A stretch of 64,000 nucleotides of DNA, taken from assembly GCA_021404685.1 (NCBI GenBank), contig QWHC01000007.1, positions 124,001-188,000 of the forward strand, written 5' to 3'. Below are positions 4,653 through 57,817 of this stretch, piece after piece. The notes below the pieces were generated by a model that was not told the origin of the DNA, did no database searches, and saw only the letters and a list, made by a program, of their open reading frames with translations. The translations under genes and the position numbers were made by a program. The stretch's first letter is position 1. Every line of letters starts with the position of its first letter. The stretch comes from Chloroflexi bacterium CFX4. Lineage in GTDB: Bacteria; Chloroflexota; Anaerolineae; Aggregatilineales; UBA2796.

Positions 4653-5396
4653 ATGCGTCTCGCTATGCTCTCGGATATTCACGGCAACCTGCACGCCCTG
4701 GAGGCGGTACTTGCCGACCTACGTGCTTATGCCGCGCCTGACCGCACATGGGTGCTTGGTGATCTATGTTTAATTGGCGCACACCCTGCCGAATGTTTGC
4801 AGCGCGTGCGCGAACTGCCACAGGTGCAGGTGATCAGCGGCAACACAGATCGGCGCTTGGTGACAGGGCAGCGCAGCCATTATCGCCCAAAGGATGCTGA
4901 AGAATGGGCGAAATTTGCAGGTTGGCTCACACAGCGCGATGCCTGCCACAACTGGACGATCAGCCAGCTTAGCTACACCGACTATGAATACCTTGCCGCT
5001 TTGCCGCCTGAAATTGAGCTGCATGTGCCAAACTATGGTTGGCTGCTTGGCTATCATGGCGCGCCCGGCAACGATGAGGCGAACCTGCTGCCTGATACGC
5101 CCGCTGATGAAGTGCTGGATTACTTCCTAGACCGTGAAGGACGCTTTGGCGTTGGTGGACACACCCATATCCCAATGGATCGGGATTTAGGCACGTGGCG
5201 CGTGGTGAACCTTGGCAGCGTTGGCTTGCCTAAAGATGATCCACGCGCAGCCTATGCCATCGCCACCTTTGAAAATGGCGGTGTGCAGGTCGAGATTCGG
5301 CGCGTTGCCTACGATGTGGAGGCTGCCCTCACCGCCCTAGCGCAATCAGGTAACACAGCCTGGCAATGGGCAGCCGAAAACTTCAAGCACGCCTAA
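4653..5396 (+). CDS. YfcE/MJ0936-type metallophosphoesterase
   Basis: A calcineurin-like phosphoesterase of 247 residues, expected to use two metal ions to hydrolyse phosphodiesters or phosphomonoesters. The metal-binding motifs appear in order: SDIHGN (residues 7-12), LGDLC, SGNTDRR, GYHG and GGHTHIPM. The GNTD variant in place of GNHD is usual in this subfamily. The ATG at 4653 is chosen because it places the first metal motif at the N-terminus, as in the family, and lies 4 nt after the preceding stop. The substrate is not predictable. Its stop overlaps the convergent kinase-WD40 gene by 4 nt. Confidence 0.9.
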   Translation: MRLAMLSDIHGNLHALEAVLADLRAYAAPDRTWVLGDLCLIGAHPAECLQRVRELPQVQVISGNTDRRLVTGQRSHYRPKDAEEWAKFAGWLTQRDACHNWTISQLSYTDYEYLAALPPEIELHVPNYGWLLGYHGAPGNDEANLLPDTPADEVLDYFLDREGRFGVGGHTHIPMDRDLGTWRVVNLGSVGLPKDDPRAAYAIATFENGGVQVEIRRVAYDVEAALTALAQSGNTAWQWAAENFKHA

Positions 5397-8300
5397 AGCA
5401 GGTTGCGCTTACGCCCGCTGCCTGAAGGTTGCCCTTCCAAACGGACAAGGTAGACAGCCCCTTTGTTATCGCCAATGGCGAAATCTATACCGTTGGGCGC
5501 CACTGCCGCGCATGTGATCGGGCTGGCAACGCGGAAAATTGCCATAACCTGCTGTGTGCGCGCCGCGTAGATACGCAACCAACGATCCGCATCGGCGCTG
5601 AAGATCAGGCTGCCATCCCGCGTGTAGCCGCAGGCAGTGATCGGTGCGCTGCCGCTGCGCGCAAAGGTTGCCATCGCGCCGCTGCGCCGATCAAACAGGC
5701 TGAGCGATCCGTCCGCAGTGCCAAGCAGCACGAGGCTGCCTTCGGGCTGAAAAGCAACCGCAGTGTAAGTGATTAGCGGATCGGCAAAGGTGTGGATCAG
5801 CTCACCTTTTGCCAGCGACCATAAAGACGCGCTGCGATCTTTGCAGAGCGTGAGCAGTAACTCGTCGGTTGGGCTGAACAGGCAAGCCGTTACGGCGTCA
5901 CGGTGACCTTTCAAACTCAGGACGAGTTGCCCGCTCTCAGCGTCAAACAGCCGTACTGTTCGGTCTGCGCCGCCAGAGGCAACCAGCCAGTTTGGGCGTG
6001 GCATAGTACCAATCTTCAACGGCTTCAAGCTGAAGGCACATGCCAGCACAGAGTCCAGATGCCCGCCAAACTGCCGCAGCAGCGCGCCGCGATCAACATC
6101 CCATGCGCGCAATGTACGGTCGCTGCTGGCTGTGAGCGCCATACGTCCATCGGCGCGCACCGCAAGCGCATAAATGCCGCCTACATGCCCACGCATGGTC
6201 TGGACGCGCTCACCTGTATCTGCGTGCCAAACGCGCACCTCACGGTCTTGCGAAGCGCTGATCAAACGTGCAGAGTCGGGCGTGAAAGCGATGCCCTGCA
6301 CTGTTGCACCGTGTGCCTCCACAGGGATGCGGTCTGCCTCCGGCAGAGTCCAAAGGCGCAGCGCACCCTCGCGCCCGCCAGAGAGCAATCTGCCAAGCGG
6401 ATCGAAGGCGCAGGCGCTCACCGCTGCCCGATGCCCTGTGAAGTGCGCCAACAACCGCCCATTTTCCACTTCCCACACCCGTACCGTCCGATCTTCGCTG
6501 GCAGCGGCGATCAACAAGCGCCCTGCCAGAAAGGTGAGCGTGATCGCTGTAATCGCGCCTGTGCCGCCCGCCAGAGTTCGCAGTAGCGCACCGTTGCGCG
6601 CATCCCACAGGCAAACTTGCCCATCAGCGCCCCCGCTTGCCACTAACGGATGCCGATCCTCCAAGCCTACACACGCCGTCACCGCGCCGCGATGCCCTTC
6701 AAGCGTATGCAGCAACACATTGCCCGCCGCGTCCCACAGGCGCAAGCTGCCTTCTGCATCACCTGAGATCGCCACGCGCTTGCCGCCTGCACCAACGGCA
6801 AAGGCGCAGCACGTTACAGCGGCAGGATGTTCATAGAAAGCGGCGCGCAACTGCCCATTGCTCGTGTCCCACAGGCGCAGCAGCCGATCTTCACAAGCAG
6901 TTAGAGCAAGGGTGCTATCGGCACTCAGCGCGCAGCCCAACACCGCCCGCCTATGGTCTGTCCAGAGATGCAGGCGCATGTCACGCCCTAAATCCCAGAG
7001 GTGCGCTGTGCCATCGGCAGCCGCGCTCAGCGCATAGCCCCCATCGCTGCTCAAGGCGCAATCGGTCAGGGCTGCTGTGCCAGCATTGTTGCTGTGTGCC
7101 AGCCATTCACGGCGCAGCACGCCATCTTGCCACAAACGTAAGAACCCATCGGCACAGGCAGCCAGCCAGCACACGCTTGAGGTTGCCCCAGAATCCACAG
7201 CAAGCCGACTGACGGCGCTGCCCTCAGCCTGGCTGGCGGCAAGGGCAAGTGGCGCTGAGCCTTGCCAGATCGCCAATGATTCATTAGGCGGTGCGCTGAA
7301 TGGTGACCACACAACGCGCAGCCATGTGCCGCGCCAAGCCGCGGCGGCAGCGCGCAGCGACTCGGCAAGGGCAGGCACATTCTGCAAGCGGTTATAGAGC
7401 TGCCCAAACAGCGCGCTGGAATCACCGCCGATGCTCGGAATAGCAGCCCGCACTGCCTGCGCGATGCTCTCTAAGGCGGCGGCAGGCGCCAAATGCCCGT
7501 CGTCAAGCAAGGCAAGGCGCACCTCAATCAGATCATCCAAAATATCCGCCACCGAGACGCGCTTCAAACGTGCCGTTAAGAAGCTGAGGTCGGTCAGCAG
7601 GTCAAATGCGGCAAGGCTTCCTTCAGCGCGCAGCACATGCGCGAGCAAATGCTGCCAGGCATAAAGTTCCATCGCCTCAGGGTCATCGCGCCGCAATGCC
7701 TGATCAAGGCGTGCGTGGGCAACACGGATGCCATCGGCGGCGTTCTCCAACAGCCAATAGCGTAAGGCGCTGTGCGTTAGCTGCCAATCCGTCCTGCTGC
7801 TTGTCTCTTCCAGCAGTGGGCGCAAACGCGCTAGGTGTTTGGGCAAAGCGGCTGGCTCAAGGGTCAGCGCGCTTGCCAGCAAACGGCTAGGAAGCGGCGC
7901 GCGGGCAGCCGCCAGCACATGCAACACCTCAAGATCGTCTGGGCTAAGACGCGCCACCAAATAGGCAAAGAGTGCCTCTAGGCTTTCAGGCAAGCTGCCC
8001 AGTTCAGCAAGGCTAATGTGCTGGTGTGCCAAGCAGGCAGTGACCACATTCAGATAAAGCGGGTTGCCCTGTGCCTTCTCAATCAGCGCGGCAAGGTCAA
8101 CCTCACCACCGCTGAGGTTCGGCATCAATGCAGCGAAATGCGTGCTGAGCGTGGCATACAGCGCATTGCGATCTTCGTCGTTATCCGCGTGCAGGGCAAG
8201 GCGTTGAGCATTGCGGAAAAGCGGCTCTAGCGTAGGATGCGGCGCGGCTGCCACCACAAGGCGCAGCACATCGGGAAAGTTCTGGAGCGTGGCGCGCACC

Positions 8301-9640
8301 AGATCGGCGATGGTGCTGCCGTAGTGTTCAAAGGCAGCGTCTAGTGCATCCACAAAGAGGAAGATCGGCGGATTAGGTGGCAATTGGCTGAGTGGCGTTA
8401 GCACGCGGTTCTCGAACGCCTCACGCGGATCAACCAACACTTCGCGCAAGGCGTCGCCGGTGGGCGCATCCTGATCAGCGGGCAGAAAAGCTGCCAACTG
8501 CCACGCGACCGAGTCAACAAAAGTGCGCGGATCGAGCGTGCGCGCCTGCCCGCTGATCAAATCGTAGCGGGCAACGCGCTCACCAACCAGATCGGCAAAG
8601 CGGCGCATAAGCGTGCTTTTGCCAATGCCGTGCGCGCCAACCACGTACAGCACAGGGCTGGCGGCACGGTCGGTGCGCCATGCACGGAAGGCATCCAACG
8701 CCCATTGGCGTTCAGCGAGCGCCTGCGTTGCACTGAACTGCGGTAGCCGTGGCAGCATCTCTGTGCTGAGGGTGGCTGCATCAGTGCGCGGTGTGTGCGG
8801 CACGGCACGGCGTTCGCCGCTAGGGCGCAAGGCACTGGTGAAGGCACGCGCCAATTCACCTGCTGACGGATAGCGATCATCGGGCAGTTTGGCAAGGGCG
8901 CGCTGAATGACGCTATCCACAGCGGTTGGCAGGTCAGTGCGGTGCGCGCCAAGCAGCGGCGGCAGGTCGTTCAGGTGCTTATACATCAATGAGAAAATGT
9001 TTTCGGCATGGAAAGGCGGTTCGCCGCAGAGCATCTCATAGAGCATCGCGCCTAAGGCGTAAACATCGGTCTGTGGCATCACGTTGAGCGCTTGCCACTG
9101 CTCCGGCGACATATAGGACGGCGTGCCGACTGCTTCACCTGTCCGCGTGAGTCCATGTGTGCCTGTCAGCTTGGCGATGCCGAAATCGCACAGGAAAGCG
9201 TTGCCTTCCCGATCCAACAAGACGTTGTGCGGCTTCATATCACGGTGAATAACGTTTCGCGCATGAGCATAGTCTAGGGCAGCGGCAATCTGGCTGATCA
9301 GGCGTTCCACCTCTGGGATGCTCAAATTCTTGGCGCGCACACGGCTGTTCAGGCTGCCACCATCCAGATAACGCATCACAATGTAGGGAAAACCGTCTAC
9401 CTGTCCATAGTCATAGATAGGCAGAATGTGGATATGCTCTAGGTTGGCAATAATCTGCACTTCGCGCACAAAACGCTCAAGTTCGGGTGAGCCTTCCTCT
9501 GTGCGCTCACTCATAACCTTGATCGCCACTTCGCGGTTTACTGTCTGTTGGCGTGCCTTGTAGACGGTGGACATGCCGCCGCGCCCAATAAAGGCGGTCA
9601 GTTCATAGTTGCCGAGCGTTTTGCCAACCAAATCAAACAC
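5393..9640 (-). CDS. Ser/Thr protein kinase - P-loop ATPase - WD40 repeat protein
   Basis: A 1,415-residue signalling protein. Residues about 8-270 are a Hanks-type kinase with an intact glycine loop (GRGGMSTVYKA), VAIK lysine, HRDMKPHN catalytic loop (near residue 130) and DFG. Residues about 300-500 are a STAND/AAA-like NTPase with Walker A GAHGIGKST (near residue 333) and Walker B FLFVDALD (near residue 423). A helical region follows, then roughly a dozen WD40 repeats from about residue 780 to the end, many with recognisable (V)WD-type ends. No membrane segment is seen. GTG at 9640 is preferred (AGAGG 7 nt upstream, kinase motif at the right distance); an in-frame ATG at 9670 is the alternative. 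Such proteins are thought to couple ligand sensing by WD40 and NTP-driven oligomerisation to phosphorylation. The target is unknown. Confidence 0.9.
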   Translation of the reverse strand: MFDLVGKTLGNYELTAFIGRGGMSTVYKARQQTVNREVAIKVMSERTEEGSPELERFVREVQIIANLEHIHILPIYDYGQVDGFPYIVMRYLDGGSLNSRVRAKNLSIPEVERLISQIAAALDYAHARNVIHRDMKPHNVLLDREGNAFLCDFGIAKLTGTHGLTRTGEAVGTPSYMSPEQWQALNVMPQTDVYALGAMLYEMLCGEPPFHAENIFSLMYKHLNDLPPLLGAHRTDLPTAVDSVIQRALAKLPDDRYPSAGELARAFTSALRPSGERRAVPHTPRTDAATLSTEMLPRLPQFSATQALAERQWALDAFRAWRTDRAASPVLYVVGAHGIGKSTLMRRFADLVGERVARYDLISGQARTLDPRTFVDSVAWQLAAFLPADQDAPTGDALREVLVDPREAFENRVLTPLSQLPPNPPIFLFVDALDAAFEHYGSTIADLVRATLQNFPDVLRLVVAAAPHPTLEPLFRNAQRLALHADNDEDRNALYATLSTHFAALMPNLSGGEVDLAALIEKAQGNPLYLNVVTACLAHQHISLAELGSLPESLEALFAYLVARLSPDDLEVLHVLAAARAPLPSRLLASALTLEPAALPKHLARLRPLLEETSSRTDWQLTHSALRYWLLENAADGIRVAHARLDQALRRDDPEAMELYAWQHLLAHVLRAEGSLAAFDLLTDLSFLTARLKRVSVADILDDLIEVRLALLDDGHLAPAAALESIAQAVRAAIPSIGGDSSALFGQLYNRLQNVPALAESLRAAAAAWRGTWLRVVWSPFSAPPNESLAIWQGSAPLALAASQAEGSAVSRLAVDSGATSSVCWLAACADGFLRLWQDGVLRREWLAHSNNAGTAALTDCALSSDGGYALSAAADGTAHLWDLGRDMRLHLWTDHRRAVLGCALSADSTLALTACEDRLLRLWDTSNGQLRAAFYEHPAAVTCCAFAVGAGGKRVAISGDAEGSLRLWDAAGNVLLHTLEGHRGAVTACVGLEDRHPLVASGGADGQVCLWDARNGALLRTLAGGTGAITAITLTFLAGRLLIAAASEDRTVRVWEVENGRLLAHFTGHRAAVSACAFDPLGRLLSGGREGALRLWTLPEADRIPVEAHGATVQGIAFTPDSARLISASQDREVRVWHADTGERVQTMRGHVGGIYALAVRADGRMALTASSDRTLRAWDVDRGALLRQFGGHLDSVLACAFSLKPLKIGTMPRPNWLVASGGADRTVRLFDAESGQLVLSLKGHRDAVTACLFSPTDELLLTLCKDRSASLWSLAKGELIHTFADPLITYTAVAFQPEGSLVLLGTADGSLSLFDRRSGAMATFARSGSAPITACGYTRDGSLIFSADADRWLRIYAARTQQVMAIFRVASPITCAAVAPNGIDFAIGDNKGAVYLVRLEGQPSGSGRKRNLL

Positions 9641-9818
9641 AATGTGCCTCTCTTCTCGCTGCCGATCCATGCCTAGTATATCCCGTTTAGCAGCCCTAGA
9701 CAGGGCGCGATGTAGGGCTGCGCCTTGGCATATCCTGCGCCCACTTGCCTCTGGCAGAACACACCGACTTGCGCTAAAATAGAACGCTCGTTCGGAGATA
9801 GTGGAAGGCAGTAGCGAC

Positions 9819-12800
9819 ATGCCAGCTTTTGAATTAGACGCCCCTTACCAACCTACCGGCGACCAGCCGCAGGCAATTGAAAAGTTAGTGGACGGCGTGC
9901 GGCGCGGCTTGCGCCACCAGACCTTGCTTGGCGCCACTGGCACAGGCAAAAGCCTCGGTTACAATGATCCTGTTTTTATTGTCGAAGTGTGTGACGGAAT
10001 CCAACAGCCAAAGGTTATTCCCATCGGTTCTTTTATTGATGAGCTGTTGCTAGTTCATCAACAGCAGGTTAGGCATAAAGGTGACACAGACACTTTAGAG
10101 CTAACCAACGCTATACCACGCTATTATACTCAGGCATTTGATCCTGAAACACGCCAAGTTGCTTTGCACCCCATCCAATCCGTCCTACGGCACGACACAC
10201 CGACTGAGATGTACCACTTGCAAACTGCCTGCGGACGTGAGGCAACGCTAACAGGCGATCACAATTTATGGGTGATGCGCGATGGTTACTTGAGGTTAAT
10301 TCGCACCGCAGACGCACTATCAACTGACTATGTACCGCTACCCGAAAGACTATTGGGCGAATCAGACCTACATACATTGGATTTGCGCGAAATTGTGACA
10401 GGGCGGCGCGTGGTTACAGTTGAGGGGCGGCAAGTCTTTGCGCTCAGCCAAAATGCTACTATGAAACTAGACTGTGAAATGCCTCTTTCGCCCGCTGTAC
10501 TGAAGCTCTTTGGTTATTACATTGCAGAAGGATGCAGCCAGTCTGGTTATCTCATCATCGCCAACCGCAACCCACACATACGCGGCGAAATTGAGGCAGC
10601 CTGCCAAGCGCTAGGCATTCGTTTCTCAGTCCGCCCATCGTCCGATTATCAGATTTCATCAGGTGCGCTGACAGATGCCCTGCATGAATTATGTGGTGGC
10701 AACGCACGCGAAAAGCAACTGCCGCCTTTTTGGTCACAATTATCACAGGTCAATTTGGCACATCTGCTGCGCGCCTATTTTGATGGGGATGGTTTTGTAG
10801 AACACGCCAGTGCAGTATGTGCAATGACAGCGAGTTCGCAACTTGCCTCGGATTTAGCCTACGCCTTGCTGCGCTTTGGTATTTGGGCGCATATTTCTAA
10901 ACGTTGGAAGCGGGCGACCAACACGGATCATATCGGCGATTGGTATTATCTGATCACGATTTCTGGTCAGGCTGATCTGAGGCGTTTTGCTGAATATATT
11001 GGTTTTTCGCTCAGCTACAAGATGGAAGCACTCCAGCGCCATTTTGCCGCCAAAGAACATTCAAACGTAGATATTGTTCCAATCAAGGGCGCAGATTTAC
11101 GTTGGTTACGGATTACGCTTGGCTTGACGGCAAGGCAACTTGGTGACTTGTGTGGTATCTCGCGGTCAGGCATACAACTTTTTGAGGCAGGCAAACGCAA
11201 GCCACGCCGCAAACGCCTGATTGCCCTTTTGAATGCACTTCGAAAGGTTGCGACCGAACAAGGGCAGGTACCTGAAAGGTGGCAATTTATCTGGGAGCAG
11301 ATGCGCTATGCGTGCAATCTGCGCTGGACACCGATTAAATCCGTTACTCCTGCTGCCTATCCATATCCTTACGTCTACGATTTGAGCGTTCCTGAAGTTG
11401 AGAACTTTCTTGCCGGCAATGGTGGCTTTTTTGTGCATAATACCTACGCCGTGGCGCAGGTTGTGCAGCAAATCCAGCGACCGACGCTCGTGCTGGCGCA
11501 CAACAAGACGCTTGCCGCGCAGCTCTATGCCGAGTTCAAAGAGTTCTTCCCGCGCAACGCCGTCGAGTACTTCGTCAGCTACTACGACTACTATCAGCCT
11601 GAGGCATATGTGCCGCGCCTTGATCTCTACATCGAGAAAGAGTCGGACATTAACGATGAGATTGAGCGCTTGCGCCTTGCCGCAACAGCCGCCTTGCTGA
11701 CACGGCAAGACGTCCTGATCGTGGCTTCTGTCTCGTGCATCTACGGCTTGGTCAGCCCGCAAACATGGGCAAAGGTGTTGCTGCCGCTCCAAGTTGGGCA
11801 GACCATCCGCCGCAACGATGTGCTGCGCCACTTAGTGACGATCCTTTATGAGCGCAACGACGTTGACCTGAAGCGTGGCGCCTTCCGTGTGCGCGGCGAT
11901 ACGCTGGAGATCATGCCCTCCTACCTAGAGACTGCCTACCGCATCGCCTTCTTTGGCGATGAGATCGAGCGCATTGTGCATTTCGACCCGATGACGGGCG
12001 AGATTCTGGAAGAAGTGACGCGCATAGACATCTTTCCCGCCAAGCACTATGTGGCAGAGAGCGACACGGTCAAGGCTGCCATTCATGATATCGAGGTGGA
12101 ACTTGAGGAACGCCTTGCTGAGTTGGAGCGCGAAGGCAAACTGCTAGAGGCGCAGCGCTTAAAGCAGCGCACCCTGTTCGACCTAGAGATGATCCGCGAG
12201 ATCGGCACATGCAGCGGCATTGAAAACTATTCGCGCCACTTTGATCGTCGTGCGCCCGGCACACCGCCCTATACCCTGCTGGACTATCTGCCCGAAGATT
12301 ACCTGCTCGTCATTGATGAGAGCCACATCGCTGTGCCGCAAGTGCGCGGCATGTACCACGGTGACCGTTCGCGCAAGGTGACGTTGGTAGACTACGGCTT
12401 CCGCCTGCCCTGTGCGATGGATAACCGCCCGCTGAACTTTGAGGAGTTTGAGGCGCGCATGGGACAGACCATCTACACCAGCGCCACGCCGGGTCCTTAC
12501 GAACTGGAACACTCGCAGCAAGTGGTGCAGCAGATCATCCGCCCAACGGGCATTGTTGACCCTGAGATCAGCGTGCGCCCGATTGAAGGGCAGGTGGACA
12601 ACTTGCTTAAAGAGATCACCATCCGCACCAAGCGCGGCGAACGCGCCCTTGTTACCACGCTGACCAAGCGCATGGCAGAAGATTTGGCGCAGTACCTGAC
12701 CGAGATGGGCGTGCGCGTCCACTACCTGCACAGCGAGATTGACACCTTGCAGCGCATTGAGATTCTGCGCGATCTGCGGCTGGGCGTCTATGATGTGGTG

Positions 12801-23980: not shown

Positions 23981-24272
23981 AGCTATGTCCTCAAAAGTAT
24001 TCTTTTGCACAATGCCGCCAAGTGTAGCGTAGATTCGGCGAATGTGCTTTTCCGTGTGGATGGGAGTAGTGAGACGTGCAAAAAGACAATTGCAGGCAGA
24101 TGGGTTGAATCCATCCGCCATGCCGACCTGAGCGTATGGGAGGCTTGCCCGACTTATAAACCATCATCACAAATTTCTGGCACATCCTCGCCATTTTCAA
24201 GTGGCTTGCCTTCGTGGTATGCTTATAGGGTAGGCTGCTTAATCCAAGCGGCTGTGGCGTAGGAGGCATGTT

Positions 24273-24944
24273 TTGAACACAGAAGACTTTATCCGCCGCC
24301 GTCCGGTTTACCTGCTGCTGGATACCTCTGGTTCGATGCGCGGCGCACCGATTCAGGCGGTGCAGCAGGGCGTCACCATGATTCACCAAGAACTGATGAA
24401 TAATCCGCACGCGATTGAGACGGTTTATCTAAGTGTAATCACCTTTGCTGATAACGCACAGCAGATTGTGCGCCTGTGTTCGGTGGAGGAGTTCAAGCCG
24501 CCAACCTTGCGCGCCGAAGGCAGCACTGCGCTTGGCGCGGCGATCACGCTGCTAGGGCAGGCATTCGAGCGCGAGTTGATCCCAAACAGCGAAGGGCGCA
24601 AAGGCGATTACCGCCCCCTGATCTTCCTGCTGACCGATGGCGCGCCCACCGATGATTGGCGTCCGCCGATCACGAACTTCAAGGCGCAGCGCGGCAGCAA
24701 GATCGGCGCATTTGTGGCGTTGGGCTGCGGCACTAACGTCAACACCGCCATCTTGAAGGAAATCACGAACGATGTACTTTACATGAAAGATACCAGCCCT
24801 GATGCGCTTAAACAGTTCTTTCGGTGGGTATCCTCCAGCATTCAAAAGACCAGCCAGCGCATTGAGGCACGCCCTGATGAAGGCGCGCTAGAGGCAATGC
24901 CGCTGCCGCCGGTCATGAAGTGGGATCGCAGTACGACTAGTTAA
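24273..24944 (+). CDS. TerY-like von Willebrand factor A domain protein
   Basis: A 223-residue VWA protein. The MIDAS metal site is intact: DTSGSM (residues 17-22), the Thr in GSTALG, and Asp in LLTDGAPTDDW. The sequence RPVYLLLDTSGSMRG and the later FVALGCGTNVNTAILKEIT are typical of TerY, the VWA component of tellurite-resistance-linked stress and signalling systems. Translation starts at TTG (24273), preceded at 6 nt by a perfect AGGAGG; an ATG 5 nt upstream is out of frame and stops at once. The next gene, 24 nt downstream, is a PP2C phosphatase, so the two form the VWA and phosphatase parts of a TerY-P module. Confidence 0.9.
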   Translation: MNTEDFIRRRPVYLLLDTSGSMRGAPIQAVQQGVTMIHQELMNNPHAIETVYLSVITFADNAQQIVRLCSVEEFKPPTLRAEGSTALGAAITLLGQAFERELIPNSEGRKGDYRPLIFLLTDGAPTDDWRPPITNFKAQRGSKIGAFVALGCGTNVNTAILKEITNDVLYMKDTSPDALKQFFRWVSSSIQKTSQRIEARPDEGALEAMPLPPVMKWDRSTTS

Positions 24945-24968
24945 GCGAAGCGTATACCAACCAATCCT

Positions 24969-26276
24969 ATGCCGCCAATCATTCACCTTGTGGTAGACCC
25001 ACGCGGATGGGCGTCACCGCCTGATGCGGAGATGCTCACCGCCCTGATGAAAGCCCGTTTGCGCGGTTATACACCATTGACTGTTCAAACGCGCTTGCTT
25101 GGTGAAGGTTGGGCGGCAACCTTGCCTTATGAAGAAGCTGTTGTCCTGCTCGTTCTCTCACGCCCATTGGCAGAGGGCTGGCAGACACCGCTTGAGGCAT
25201 GGTTGAACGAACAGCACCGCCTGTATATCGCCTTTTTTGACGGTGCAGAAGTTGCCGACCTGCGCGGCTTGGCTGCCCTAACCGCCACACAGCCGATCCC
25301 GCGGGCGCCTTATCGCATCCTTGCACAGACCACACACGGGCTGGATTCTGCCCTAGAATGGTTTGAAGGCGTGCTGAACAAAATGCAACCTACTTTCGTG
25401 CCAGAGGCACCACCACCACCTGTCCGCGTTGCGGCGACGCGCTGGCGCAACCTGCCCAGCAATGCACAAGACATTTACGCCTATCCTGATCAGGTCATGC
25501 TCTCGGCACACGGCGCGCAAAACTATAGCCTGATCGGCGCCAGCCATCGCGGCAAAACGCACGCCCACCACGGCACCTTCCGCGATGACGCCGTTGCGCT
25601 TGGCACCACGCCCTCTTGGAATATCCTTGCCGTTGCTGATGGCGCCGGCACGGCAGCCTTAGCGCGTGTTGGCTCCAATCTGGCAGTCAGTAGCGCCCTT
25701 GCCGCCATTCGTGAAAGTGCGCCGCTTATCCCCTCACCGGATGACCTTGGGCGTGCGATTTGGGCAGGGCTAGAGGCAGCCTATCACGCCCTGTTCAACT
25801 TTGCAACTGCCGAAAATGTGGACGTGAGCGACCTGAACACAACCCTTCAACTGCTGATCCACTTTCCCTTAGAAACAAGCTGCTTTGTGGGTGTGGTGCA
25901 TGTGGGCGATGGGTTGGTAGTAGCAGAGGCAGTAGATGGGCAAATCTACCCACTCACCGAACCAGATACCGATCCTGACGACAGCGGACGCACCCTCTTT
26001 CTGACCAGCGCACCACTGAACCAGTGGAAGCGACGCACCAAAGTTTACCAGTTCGACGAGCGCCTGAGCATCGTCGCGCTGATGACCGACGGACTCTCCA
26101 GCGATCTTGAACCCTACGATGAACTGCTGCAACCAAATCTATTTGGTGCGCTACGGGCGCGAGTCTTATGCTATCCATTGCGGCAGCGCGAAAATGCCCT
26201 GCTCAGCTTCATCAGCTATGAACGGCGCGGCTCTTTTGACGACCGCACTCTTGCTGTCCTTGCGCGGGAAGGCTGA
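24969..26276 (+). CDS. PP2C-type protein phosphatase with N-terminal alpha/beta domain
   Basis: A 435-residue protein. Residues about 175-430 are a PP2C-like Ser/Thr phosphatase: SHRGKTHAHHGTFRDDA, VADGAGTA (metal Asp), VVHVGDG, LMTDGLSS and FDDRTLAV carry the expected metal-binding Asp residues. The phosphatase would oppose a Hanks-type kinase, here not adjacent. Residues 1-140 form a separate alpha/beta domain (IIHLVVDPRG, VVLLVLSRPLAEGW, LYIAFFDG) that I cannot assign; a divergent TIR or flavodoxin-like fold is possible. It follows the VWA gene by 24 nt, with no promoter seen, so they are co-transcribed. Confidence 0.87.
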   Translation: MPPIIHLVVDPRGWASPPDAEMLTALMKARLRGYTPLTVQTRLLGEGWAATLPYEEAVVLLVLSRPLAEGWQTPLEAWLNEQHRLYIAFFDGAEVADLRGLAALTATQPIPRAPYRILAQTTHGLDSALEWFEGVLNKMQPTFVPEAPPPPVRVAATRWRNLPSNAQDIYAYPDQVMLSAHGAQNYSLIGASHRGKTHAHHGTFRDDAVALGTTPSWNILAVADGAGTAALARVGSNLAVSSALAAIRESAPLIPSPDDLGRAIWAGLEAAYHALFNFATAENVDVSDLNTTLQLLIHFPLETSCFVGVVHVGDGLVVAEAVDGQIYPLTEPDTDPDDSGRTLFLTSAPLNQWKRRTKVYQFDERLSIVALMTDGLSSDLEPYDELLQPNLFGALRARVLCYPLRQRENALLSFISYERRGSFDDRTLAVLAREG

Positions 26277-56713: not shown

Positions 56714-57817
56714 CTAGACGCCTGCCTGAAGCGTTGCCGCGAAGAACGTCCAGGCCACCACCACCAGCACAATCGCCACCACAGCCGCCACAAGGCGCGG
56801 CGGAATGCGGCGTCCTTTACGCTCCACAGGCACCTCACCAAATTTCGTCCGCAGTTCTTTGGCAAAGGTTCGCACGTCTTTATGGCGGCGCGTGGGCGAC
56901 CTATCAATTGCCTGCGTCACGATCATGTTGATGTCGCTGCTGAGGTCGGTGCGATCCAGCGGCGGCGGTGAACTCGTCCGCACTTCCTGACGAACGTCTT
57001 CAGGGCGGCGCAGGCGGAAGATGTAGGGCGGACGCCCTTTCAGCATCTCATAGAGCAGCACGCCCAAGCCATACACATCGGTCTGTGCGCCATATTGCCC
57101 TTTGGGTCCGTCAATCAGCAGTTCGGGCGCAATGTAGGCAGCCATGCTGTAGCGCTCTAGCTGCTCAAAATCAATAGCGTTCGGATCATTGGCAAGGCTT
57201 AAATCCATCAGCAGCGGGCGCGGAATGCCATCACGGTCGTAGCGCACCATGATTGTATCTGGGCTAAGGTTTAGGATGAGGTGCTGCGCTTTGACATGGA
57301 CGAAGGCAGTCACATCTGCCATATTGATGGTGAGCCATGCAGCGTGCTGATACCACGGTTGCGGATTTTTGATGAGCAGATCGCGTAAGAACTCGCCTTC
57401 AGCGAAATTGTAAACAATGTAGTACTTGGTCTCGTTCCCAAAGACTGTTTTGCCATAGGGGCGCTGTTTGGCGTTGGCATCGCCCACCAGATAGGGCGGT
57501 TGTAGGACAGGTAACATCGGGTGACCACCTGCACTGGTGAGTTTCGCCATCAGTGCCGCCTCGCGCTTGATGATCTCCTCACAGCCGTTGTGCGCCACCT
57601 TGATCAAAATTGGGATGGGCTTGTTCTTCACCTTGCGGCGCGCCTCATAGAGCGCAGCCGTCTTTAGCACACGCACAAGGCGCACAATCTCAATATCACC
57701 CAAGAACTCGCCGTAGTCGAAAATTACCGAAAGTTCGCCCGCTTCCGAAATGCGAGAGGAGCCCCACATGCTGAATAAGGGCGTGATGGTATCACTTTTG
57801 GGACAGTAGCGTTTCAT
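56714..57817 (-). CDS. Membrane-anchored protein-kinase-fold protein, probable pseudokinase (EssB-like analogue)
   Basis: A 367-residue protein with a kinase fold at about residues 28-325 and one C-terminal membrane helix (about 337-358), leaving a tail of about 10 residues outside. The ATP-lysine (ILIKVAH) and helix-C Glu (KREAALMAKL) remain, and APE is kept in AYIAPELL, with DVYGLGVLLYEMLKGRPP. The HRD loop reads LILNLSPDTI, so the catalytic Asp is Asn and the Mg-binding Asn is Thr, and DFG is DLS. It should be inactive or very weak. It is divergent from the EssC-type ATPase; in Firmicutes type VII systems EssB is also a pseudokinase followed by a membrane helix. The link is inference. Confidence 0.85.
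   Translation of the reverse strand: MKRYCPKSDTITPLFSMWGSSRISEAGELSVIFDYGEFLGDIEIVRLVRVLKTAALYEARRKVKNKPIPILIKVAHNGCEEIIKREAALMAKLTSAGGHPMLPVLQPPYLVGDANAKQRPYGKTVFGNETKYYIVYNFAEGEFLRDLLIKNPQPWYQHAAWLTINMADVTAFVHVKAQHLILNLSPDTIMVRYDRDGIPRPLLMDLSLANDPNAIDFEQLERYSMAAYIAPELLIDGPKGQYGAQTDVYGLGVLLYEMLKGRPPYIFRLRRPEDVRQEVRTSSPPPLDRTDLSSDINMIVTQAIDRSPTRRHKDVRTFAKELRTKFGEVPVERKGRRIPPRLVAAVVAIVLVVVAWTFFAATLQAGV

Follow-up and report, generated by a model that had tools for sequence, protein, structure and literature searches.

A TerY-P-like VWA–phosphatase pair and a probable kinase partner encoded at a distant locus in a Chloroflexi bacterium

Introduction

TerY-P modules have been described in tellurium clusters and in phage defence, and in most hosts their job is unclear. 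In the ter cluster on plasmid 1 of Aromatoleum aromaticum EbN1 (EBN1_RS21600–RS21625), used here as the reference triad, are annotated a VWA protein, TerD, a second VWA protein, a TerY-C protein whose first part is VWA-like, a PP2C phosphatase, a kinase and TerC. As defined in a passage of PMC11090510, TerY-P comprises a TerY-like VWA protein, a PP2C phosphatase and a serine/threonine kinase (STK) with a C-terminal zinc ribbon. A comparable set in Escherichia coli is YegL–PphC–YegI, encoded by adjacent genes save for yegJ, inserted in K-12; PMC13232886 reports that YegI can autophosphorylate and is dephosphorylated by PphC. In a search of literature other than the founding work (Anantharaman et al. 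2012), no paper described a TerY-P triad that is split.

Analysed here is a 64-kb stretch (the window; positions 124,001–188,000 of contig C25) of the 4.35-Mb, 39-contig draft genome of Chloroflexi bacterium CFX4 (G000), together with relatives that are metagenome-assembled Anaerolineae or Chloroflexi bacteria. Two genes of TerY-P type adjoin in the window, and the kinase that, among those compared, most resembles the ter-cluster kinase is encoded on another contig.

The VWA and phosphatase genes

Encoded on the forward strand is VWA1 (24273–24944), a TerY/YegL-like VWA protein of 223 residues with a TTG start, preceded at a distance of 6 nt by a ribosome-binding-like GGAGG read in the sequence (24262–24266, same strand). 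Following it after 24 nt, also on the forward strand, is the gene of a 435-residue PP2C phosphatase with an ATG start (24969–26276), in which the PP2C_2 domain spans residues 194–386 (25548–26126). Both Pfam matches exceed the curated cut-offs (VWA, E = 6.5e-12; PP2C_2, E = 7.4e-30). The MIDAS letters of VWA1 (D17, S19, S21, T85 and D122) are invariant across 11 rows, namely ten family genomes and E. coli YegL, and the metal-binding aspartates of the phosphatase (D207, D224, D314, D374, D424 and D425) are invariant in all 11 family rows of a whole-protein alignment. With the open reading frames present, the domains matched and the signature residues intact, the description in the earlier note of a TerY-type VWA protein and a PP2C phosphatase 24 nt apart holds.

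Compared with same-genus relatives, the phosphatase is 74–77% identical (four genomes) and VWA1 83–89% identical (three genomes; in the fourth a contig break cuts the gene), and the dN/dS of the two genes within the genus is 0.07–0.13 (four genomes, the window's included), although many dS values exceed 1 and are unsure. Because of this identity and the low dN/dS we regard both as genes and not as chance reading frames.

Flanking the pair are an Fe-S oxidoreductase upstream, on the opposite strand, and a PD40 protein downstream; no kinase reading frame lies next to it in the 64-kb window as judged from ORFs and Pfam, in agreement with what had been noted before. Between the window genome and the relatives G001 and G002 the neighbours differ, yet VWA1 and the phosphatase remain together. 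Three phage records of human faecal origin (MT836238.1, MT835511.1 and MT839721.1), all unannotated, also encode VWA proteins 29–35% identical to VWA1.

Homology to the ter triad and a kinase on another contig

Pfam searches of the whole genome gave six PP2C_2 matches and 48 Pkinase matches, two of the latter in one frame, and with 48 kinase-fold matches the partner of the pair cannot be picked by presence or position. In comparisons with the reference triad, with E-values computed against a database of five proteins, VWA1 matches the ter-cluster VWA protein with 45% identity (E = 1.4e-49), residues 140–431 of the window phosphatase match the ter-cluster PP2C with 27% identity (E = 1.6e-20), and a kinase that we call KIN matches the ter-cluster kinase over residues 1–461 of 462 with 33% identity (E = 3e-73). 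These three are the best matches of their own genome to the three ter members, among four VWA proteins, four of the six PP2C proteins and, besides KIN, the four kinases of C4, C17 and the window; the comparison with the ter kinase did not include a kinase on contig C28 whose gene runs into the contig end. Membership of the pair in the TerY-P triad, as the earlier note had it, is thereby borne out.

KIN lies on contig C14, at about 33.5–34.9 kb, and is followed there by the genes of a large protein (BIG) and a second VWA protein (VWA2). It is the window-genome orthologue of the kinase that is linked to the pair in the relative G005 (61% identity, E = 6.5e-193), the next-best match in the window genome having an E-value of 2.3e-4. 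The contig ends, from which the minimum was worked out by hand, put at least about 108 kb between the pair, which is 77.8 kb from the end of C25, and the KIN block, which is 30.0 kb from the end of C14. The three triad genes do not share one locus in this genome.

Invariant in all 11 family rows are K37, the HSD at 142–144, N149 and D163 of KIN, as are four cysteines, C312, C317, C332 and C335. KIN and the ter kinase have in common a C-x4-C and a CPxC cysteine pair. No zinc-ribbon Pfam model matched KIN; its kinase match, the four cysteines and the full-length match to the ter kinase identify it as the Ser/Thr kinase with a zinc ribbon in this genome. An FHA-like domain in the KIN C-terminus, suspected by eye, is not claimed: a profile search of PDB sequences with this part returned one unrelated row (E = 1.3) and nothing significant.

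The system therefore resembles the Aromatoleum one in its VWA protein, its PP2C and its full-length kinase homologue, and several VWA proteins per system are found in ter systems as well. It differs in that the Aromatoleum triad genes sit in one cluster beside those of TerD and TerC, whereas here the kinase and the pair are unlinked and TerD was not found, in the N-terminal part of the phosphatase, and in the presence of BIG. The usual Ter partners are thus missing: TerD was detected in none of the 11 family genomes, and TerC passed its cut-off in one of the 11 (G005), which is not the window genome. Of the 72,556 plasmid records searched by tblastn, 2,346 matched KIN and 2,329 VWA1 (E = 1e-5), all below 60% identity; the window PP2C, which is diverged, had no plasmid match at that threshold.

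The E. coli set is likewise alike in its VWA protein, PP2C and atypical kinase with a CPWC motif; identity reaches 39% between VWA1 and YegL (153 residues) and 28% between KIN and YegI (217 residues). Unlike the adjacent E. coli genes, that of the window-genome kinase is unlinked, and KIN has a C-terminal part other than that of YegI, described in PMC13232886 as membrane bound. With the CoCoNuT-associated TerY-P modules, as a passage of PMC11090510 presents them, KIN shares the architecture of an STK with a C-terminal zinc ribbon.

Other kinases and other TerY-P-like loci

Two kinase-fold proteins are encoded in the window itself, both on the reverse strand and both recovered as open reading frames with Pfam matches: a kinase fused to WD40 repeats (5393–9820) and a kinase-like protein (56714–57817). 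The earlier note had named these two as kinases that might serve the pair in trans. They share the pair's contig, at distances of about 15 and 30 kb, and the second is kept in all 11 family genomes. Against the ter kinase, however, 5393–9820 reaches only E = 0.08 and 56714–57817 gives no match; against KIN their E-values are 0.007 and 0.031; and in G006 the orthologue of 56714–57817 is 1.46 Mb from the pair on one contig. That either of them is the partner is very improbable, and on similarity and linkage we reject them. What stands of the earlier proposal is that a kinase outside the operon would have to act in trans; the two named candidates do not.

Where kinases carry HRD and DFG, 56714–57817 reads LNLSPD and DLS and may therefore be inactive. 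Kept across the family and with these motifs, which were read in the window copy alone, it is a candidate for a conserved pseudokinase. The middle part of 5393–9820 is weakly similar to Avs1b (E = 1.3e-6).

Elsewhere in the genome, three further loci combine these protein classes. On C4 (L021, 3794–7412) is a complete VWA–PP2C–kinase locus, possibly a TerY-P of the defence type: PADLOC models match its VWA protein (TerY, 5.6e-27) and its kinase (STK_OB, 7e-9), with no PADLOC match for its PP2C, and the kinase matches the ter kinase with E = 0.002. On C28 (L019, 4256–8777) stand in a row the kinase cut by the contig end, a PP2C, a DnaJ–VWA fusion and a short cysteine-rich protein. As the C4 and C28 loci are VWA–PP2C–kinase sets of other types, neither holds the missing kinase. 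On C17 (L020, 2845–5492) a PP2C gene and a YegI-like kinase gene overlap by 4 nt, with no VWA gene in the stretch; this kinase was rejected as the partner, having an overlapping PP2C of its own, an E-value of 7e-7 against KIN and no match to the ter kinase at E = 0.1. The earlier note had allowed for a complete TerY-P operon elsewhere, with the pair belonging to another family. The first half of this applies: the C4 locus is complete and its VWA protein matches PADLOC TerY. For the window pair, though, the likely kinase is a different one, on C14.

Defence loci are usually patchy and linked. The window system could be regarded as an anti-phage TerY-P, since it has the three protein classes of the system reported by Gao et al. 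2020 (as given in a section of PMC7699616), but we consider this improbable. VWA1 and the window PP2C have no PADLOC match up to E = 1, and those of KIN are weak (at best PD-T4-6, 2.7e-6; STK_OB, 0.0053). The Gao et al. kinase carries an OB fold (PADLOC TerY and STK_OB), whereas KIN has a zinc ribbon and not an OB fold; the C4 locus is nearer to the PADLOC TerY-P and is the better anti-phage candidate. Presence in all 11 family genomes, with broadly vertical descent and mostly without linkage, is also unlike a patchy, linked defence locus.

Distribution and linkage in relatives

All 11 family genomes encode the phosphatase with its N-terminal domain, KIN (E < 1e-180) and VWA1, the G003 copy of VWA1 being in two pieces on two contigs. 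VWA2 was found in ten (not in the draft genome G003) and BIG in nine (not in the draft genomes G003 and G007). Outside the family, one of 110 relatives in the order shows a weak match, E = 3.7e-5, confined to the phosphatase part. To be present in every family genome is not specific to these genes: the window kinase 56714–57817, taken as a control, is also in 11 of 11.

VWA1 adjoins PP2C in nine of the 11 genomes, the exceptions being G003, with its contig break inside VWA1, and G010, where the genes are apart. KIN adjoins PP2C in two: in G005, VWA1, PP2C, KIN, BIG and VWA2 are contiguous and run in one direction, and in G006 the first four are together with VWA2 on another contig. In G007 the contig with the pair measures 3.0 kb and that with KIN 3.8 kb; the two are not neighbours but may be near each other. 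In the outgroup G386 the gene after VWA1–PP2C–KIN encodes a protein that is similar to the start of BIG in its first 83 residues (E = 5e-14). The earlier note had proposed a survey of neighbourhoods in relatives and a genome search for a TerY-P kinase. The likely partner is KIN on C14: its orthologue lies next to the pair in two relatives, G005 and G006, and in G386 a related kinase does.

More widely, a profile search at E = 1e-15 found relatives of KIN in 39 of 396 class genomes, 37 of them outside the family. From these 37 we chose 18 and inspected their loci, several of the stretches being cut by contig ends. Eleven hold VWA, PP2C and kinase genes within about 7 kb, although the PP2C at L135 is in two parts. 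In the remaining seven (L131, L134, L136, L137, L144, L147 and L148) the stretch contains no VWA gene, and five of these also lack a PP2C there. The L146 PP2C carries a TerY_C domain. At L136 (4281–6977), L137 (4212–6857) and L143 (7515–10049), all in other Anaerolineae-class genomes, second, longer kinases of 844–898 residues adjoin the ter-type kinase.

Probable repeated separation of the kinase from the pair

In a joined tree, which includes one outgroup row on a very long branch, G005 groups with G009 (support 99/99) and G006 with G010 (100/99), and in both groups PP2C and KIN are together in one genome and apart in the other. The fewest changes on this tree are three if re-joining is allowed. 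Without any return to the old order, the tree, read by eye, calls for five separations, in G007, G008, G009, G010 and the window genus; that of G007 is unsure, since its contig ends leave room for the pair and KIN within a kilobase or more, and without it four remain. Single-gene trees are broadly alike, which favours vertical descent, save that the VWA1 tree, at low support, does not join G005 and G009. A single ancestral locus, with the order VWA1–PP2C–KIN–BIG–VWA2, probably gave rise to all five genes, and the same split seems to have arisen several times in the family with none of the three triad genes lost.

Within the genus (four genomes), dN/dS is 0.07–0.09 for VWA1, 0.07–0.13 for PP2C, 0.07–0.15 for KIN, 0.15–0.24 for BIG and 0.15–0.20 for VWA2, with the reservation on dS given above. 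By unlinking, kinase and phosphatase no longer come from one transcript; as all five genes are kept by selection, the split switch probably works in trans.

One might instead regard the pair as a remnant, left without a kinase partner and now acting alone as a VWA–phosphatase unit. Its staying together while the neighbours change from G000 to G001 and G002 would fit, as would the separate position of KIN in nine of 11 genomes. We give this little credence, however, for KIN occurs in every family genome and is itself under strong purifying selection.

We favour the reading in which the pair makes up two of the three parts of a ter-type TerY-P switch, the third, the kinase, having moved to another place from which it works in trans (probability about 0.8). 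Behind it stand gene content and homology, the linkage seen in some of the relatives, retention and purifying selection. Complex formation, substrates and the direction of the reactions we infer as follows. VWA1, the TerY component, would be a metal-binding, metal-dependent adaptor. KIN, built of a kinase domain, a zinc ribbon and a C-terminal domain, would phosphorylate proteins, probably including itself, and the window PP2C would remove the phosphate that KIN puts on; together, the two enzymes would set the phosphorylation of shared targets, perhaps of KIN itself.

That the triad occurs in all 11 genomes without TerD, and in most of them unlinked, suggests that it is able to act as a signalling switch of the ordinary kind. 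A broader view, which we put forward tentatively and hold somewhat less probable than not, is that one bacterial family has domesticated TerY-P as a core signalling system passed on by vertical descent, without TerD or defence partners, split four or five times yet kept in all 11 genomes, and equipped with a docking domain made from a dead VWA and with a large partner. In a genome with 48 kinase-fold matches, this names a testable set of kinase, phosphatase and adaptor.

The N-terminal domain of the phosphatase

Preceding the catalytic part of the phosphatase is a separate domain formed by its first 144 residues (24969–25400, forward strand), which the earlier note had not described. The window copy of this region has no Pfam match, and its 11 members gave two single weak matches to other Pfam models (E = 0.0095 and 0.26, positions not shown). 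Modelled alone with AF2, residues 1–144 reach a pLDDT of 85.6. In the full-length model 130 of 435 residues are below 50 and the C-terminal half is poor, so its use is restricted to the N-terminal domain and the PP2C assignment.

In a Foldseek search with residues 1–144, the first five rows are all VWA chains (best E = 8.7e-4), and VIA superposes 132 residues on the vWF A3 domain (Z = 10.8, r.m.s.d. of 2.9). Profile comparison by hhalign gives scores of 24.8–28.8 with the TerY VWA sets and 21.9 with the VWA2 set, in a consistent register; for each of two sets, none of 150 column shuffles reaches the score, and hhalign's own probability for the match is only 4–16%. The MIDAS letters DxSxS, T and D are not retained: only D10 is invariant, and the serine pair and the aspartate of TDG are not kept. 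We think it probable, from the predicted model and from the profiles, that this domain is a shortened, degenerate VWA that would have lost its metal site.

It could also be TIR-like, receiver-like or some other Rossmann-like domain, which we consider distinctly less likely. Type II dehydroquinase (Z = 10.2) ties with vWF A3 by VIA's own rule, receivers and flavodoxins appear in the Foldseek list for residues 1–144, and the top match of the whole phosphatase model is RssB, a protein with a receiver and a PP2C-like part; the low hhalign probability points the same way. Against this, besides the five leading VWA rows, stand the receiver profiles, which score only 16.8, a value that four of 150 shuffles reach, compared with 28.8 for the TerY VWAs. 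No TIR domain is among the best 50 rows of each fold search with residues 1–144, though the domain may still be a TIR. A strong profile score against a broad PP2C alignment was discarded as void because that alignment includes the query itself. If it is a degenerate VWA, the N-terminal domain would probably tether the phosphatase to the VWA–kinase complex.

The large protein encoded beside the kinase

BIG is about 930 residues long in G005 and about 1,000 at L109 (6535–9594), and may be a scaffold or a substrate. Ig/ASH-like models match its relatives: Pfam finds Ig-like domains, of HYDIN type in seven of eight members, the best matches being Cep192_D6 (E = 5.3e-12) and BACON_2 (E = 6.3e-11) in members from other genomes; the window genome's own copy has weak matches only (E = 0.0049 and above). 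A profile search of PDB sequences with residues 216–330 returned 12 rows at E = 0.19–1.5, none significant: the best three are a GGDEF protein and one KIF1A, both FHA-bearing, and three are RAD53 (FHA) at E = 0.97–1.4. This leans towards an FHA-like domain, which on such matches we do not claim. The N-terminus of BIG may resemble a β-helix. The first 80 residues of BIG recur beside ter-type kinases in other families (at L132 and, weakly, at L139).
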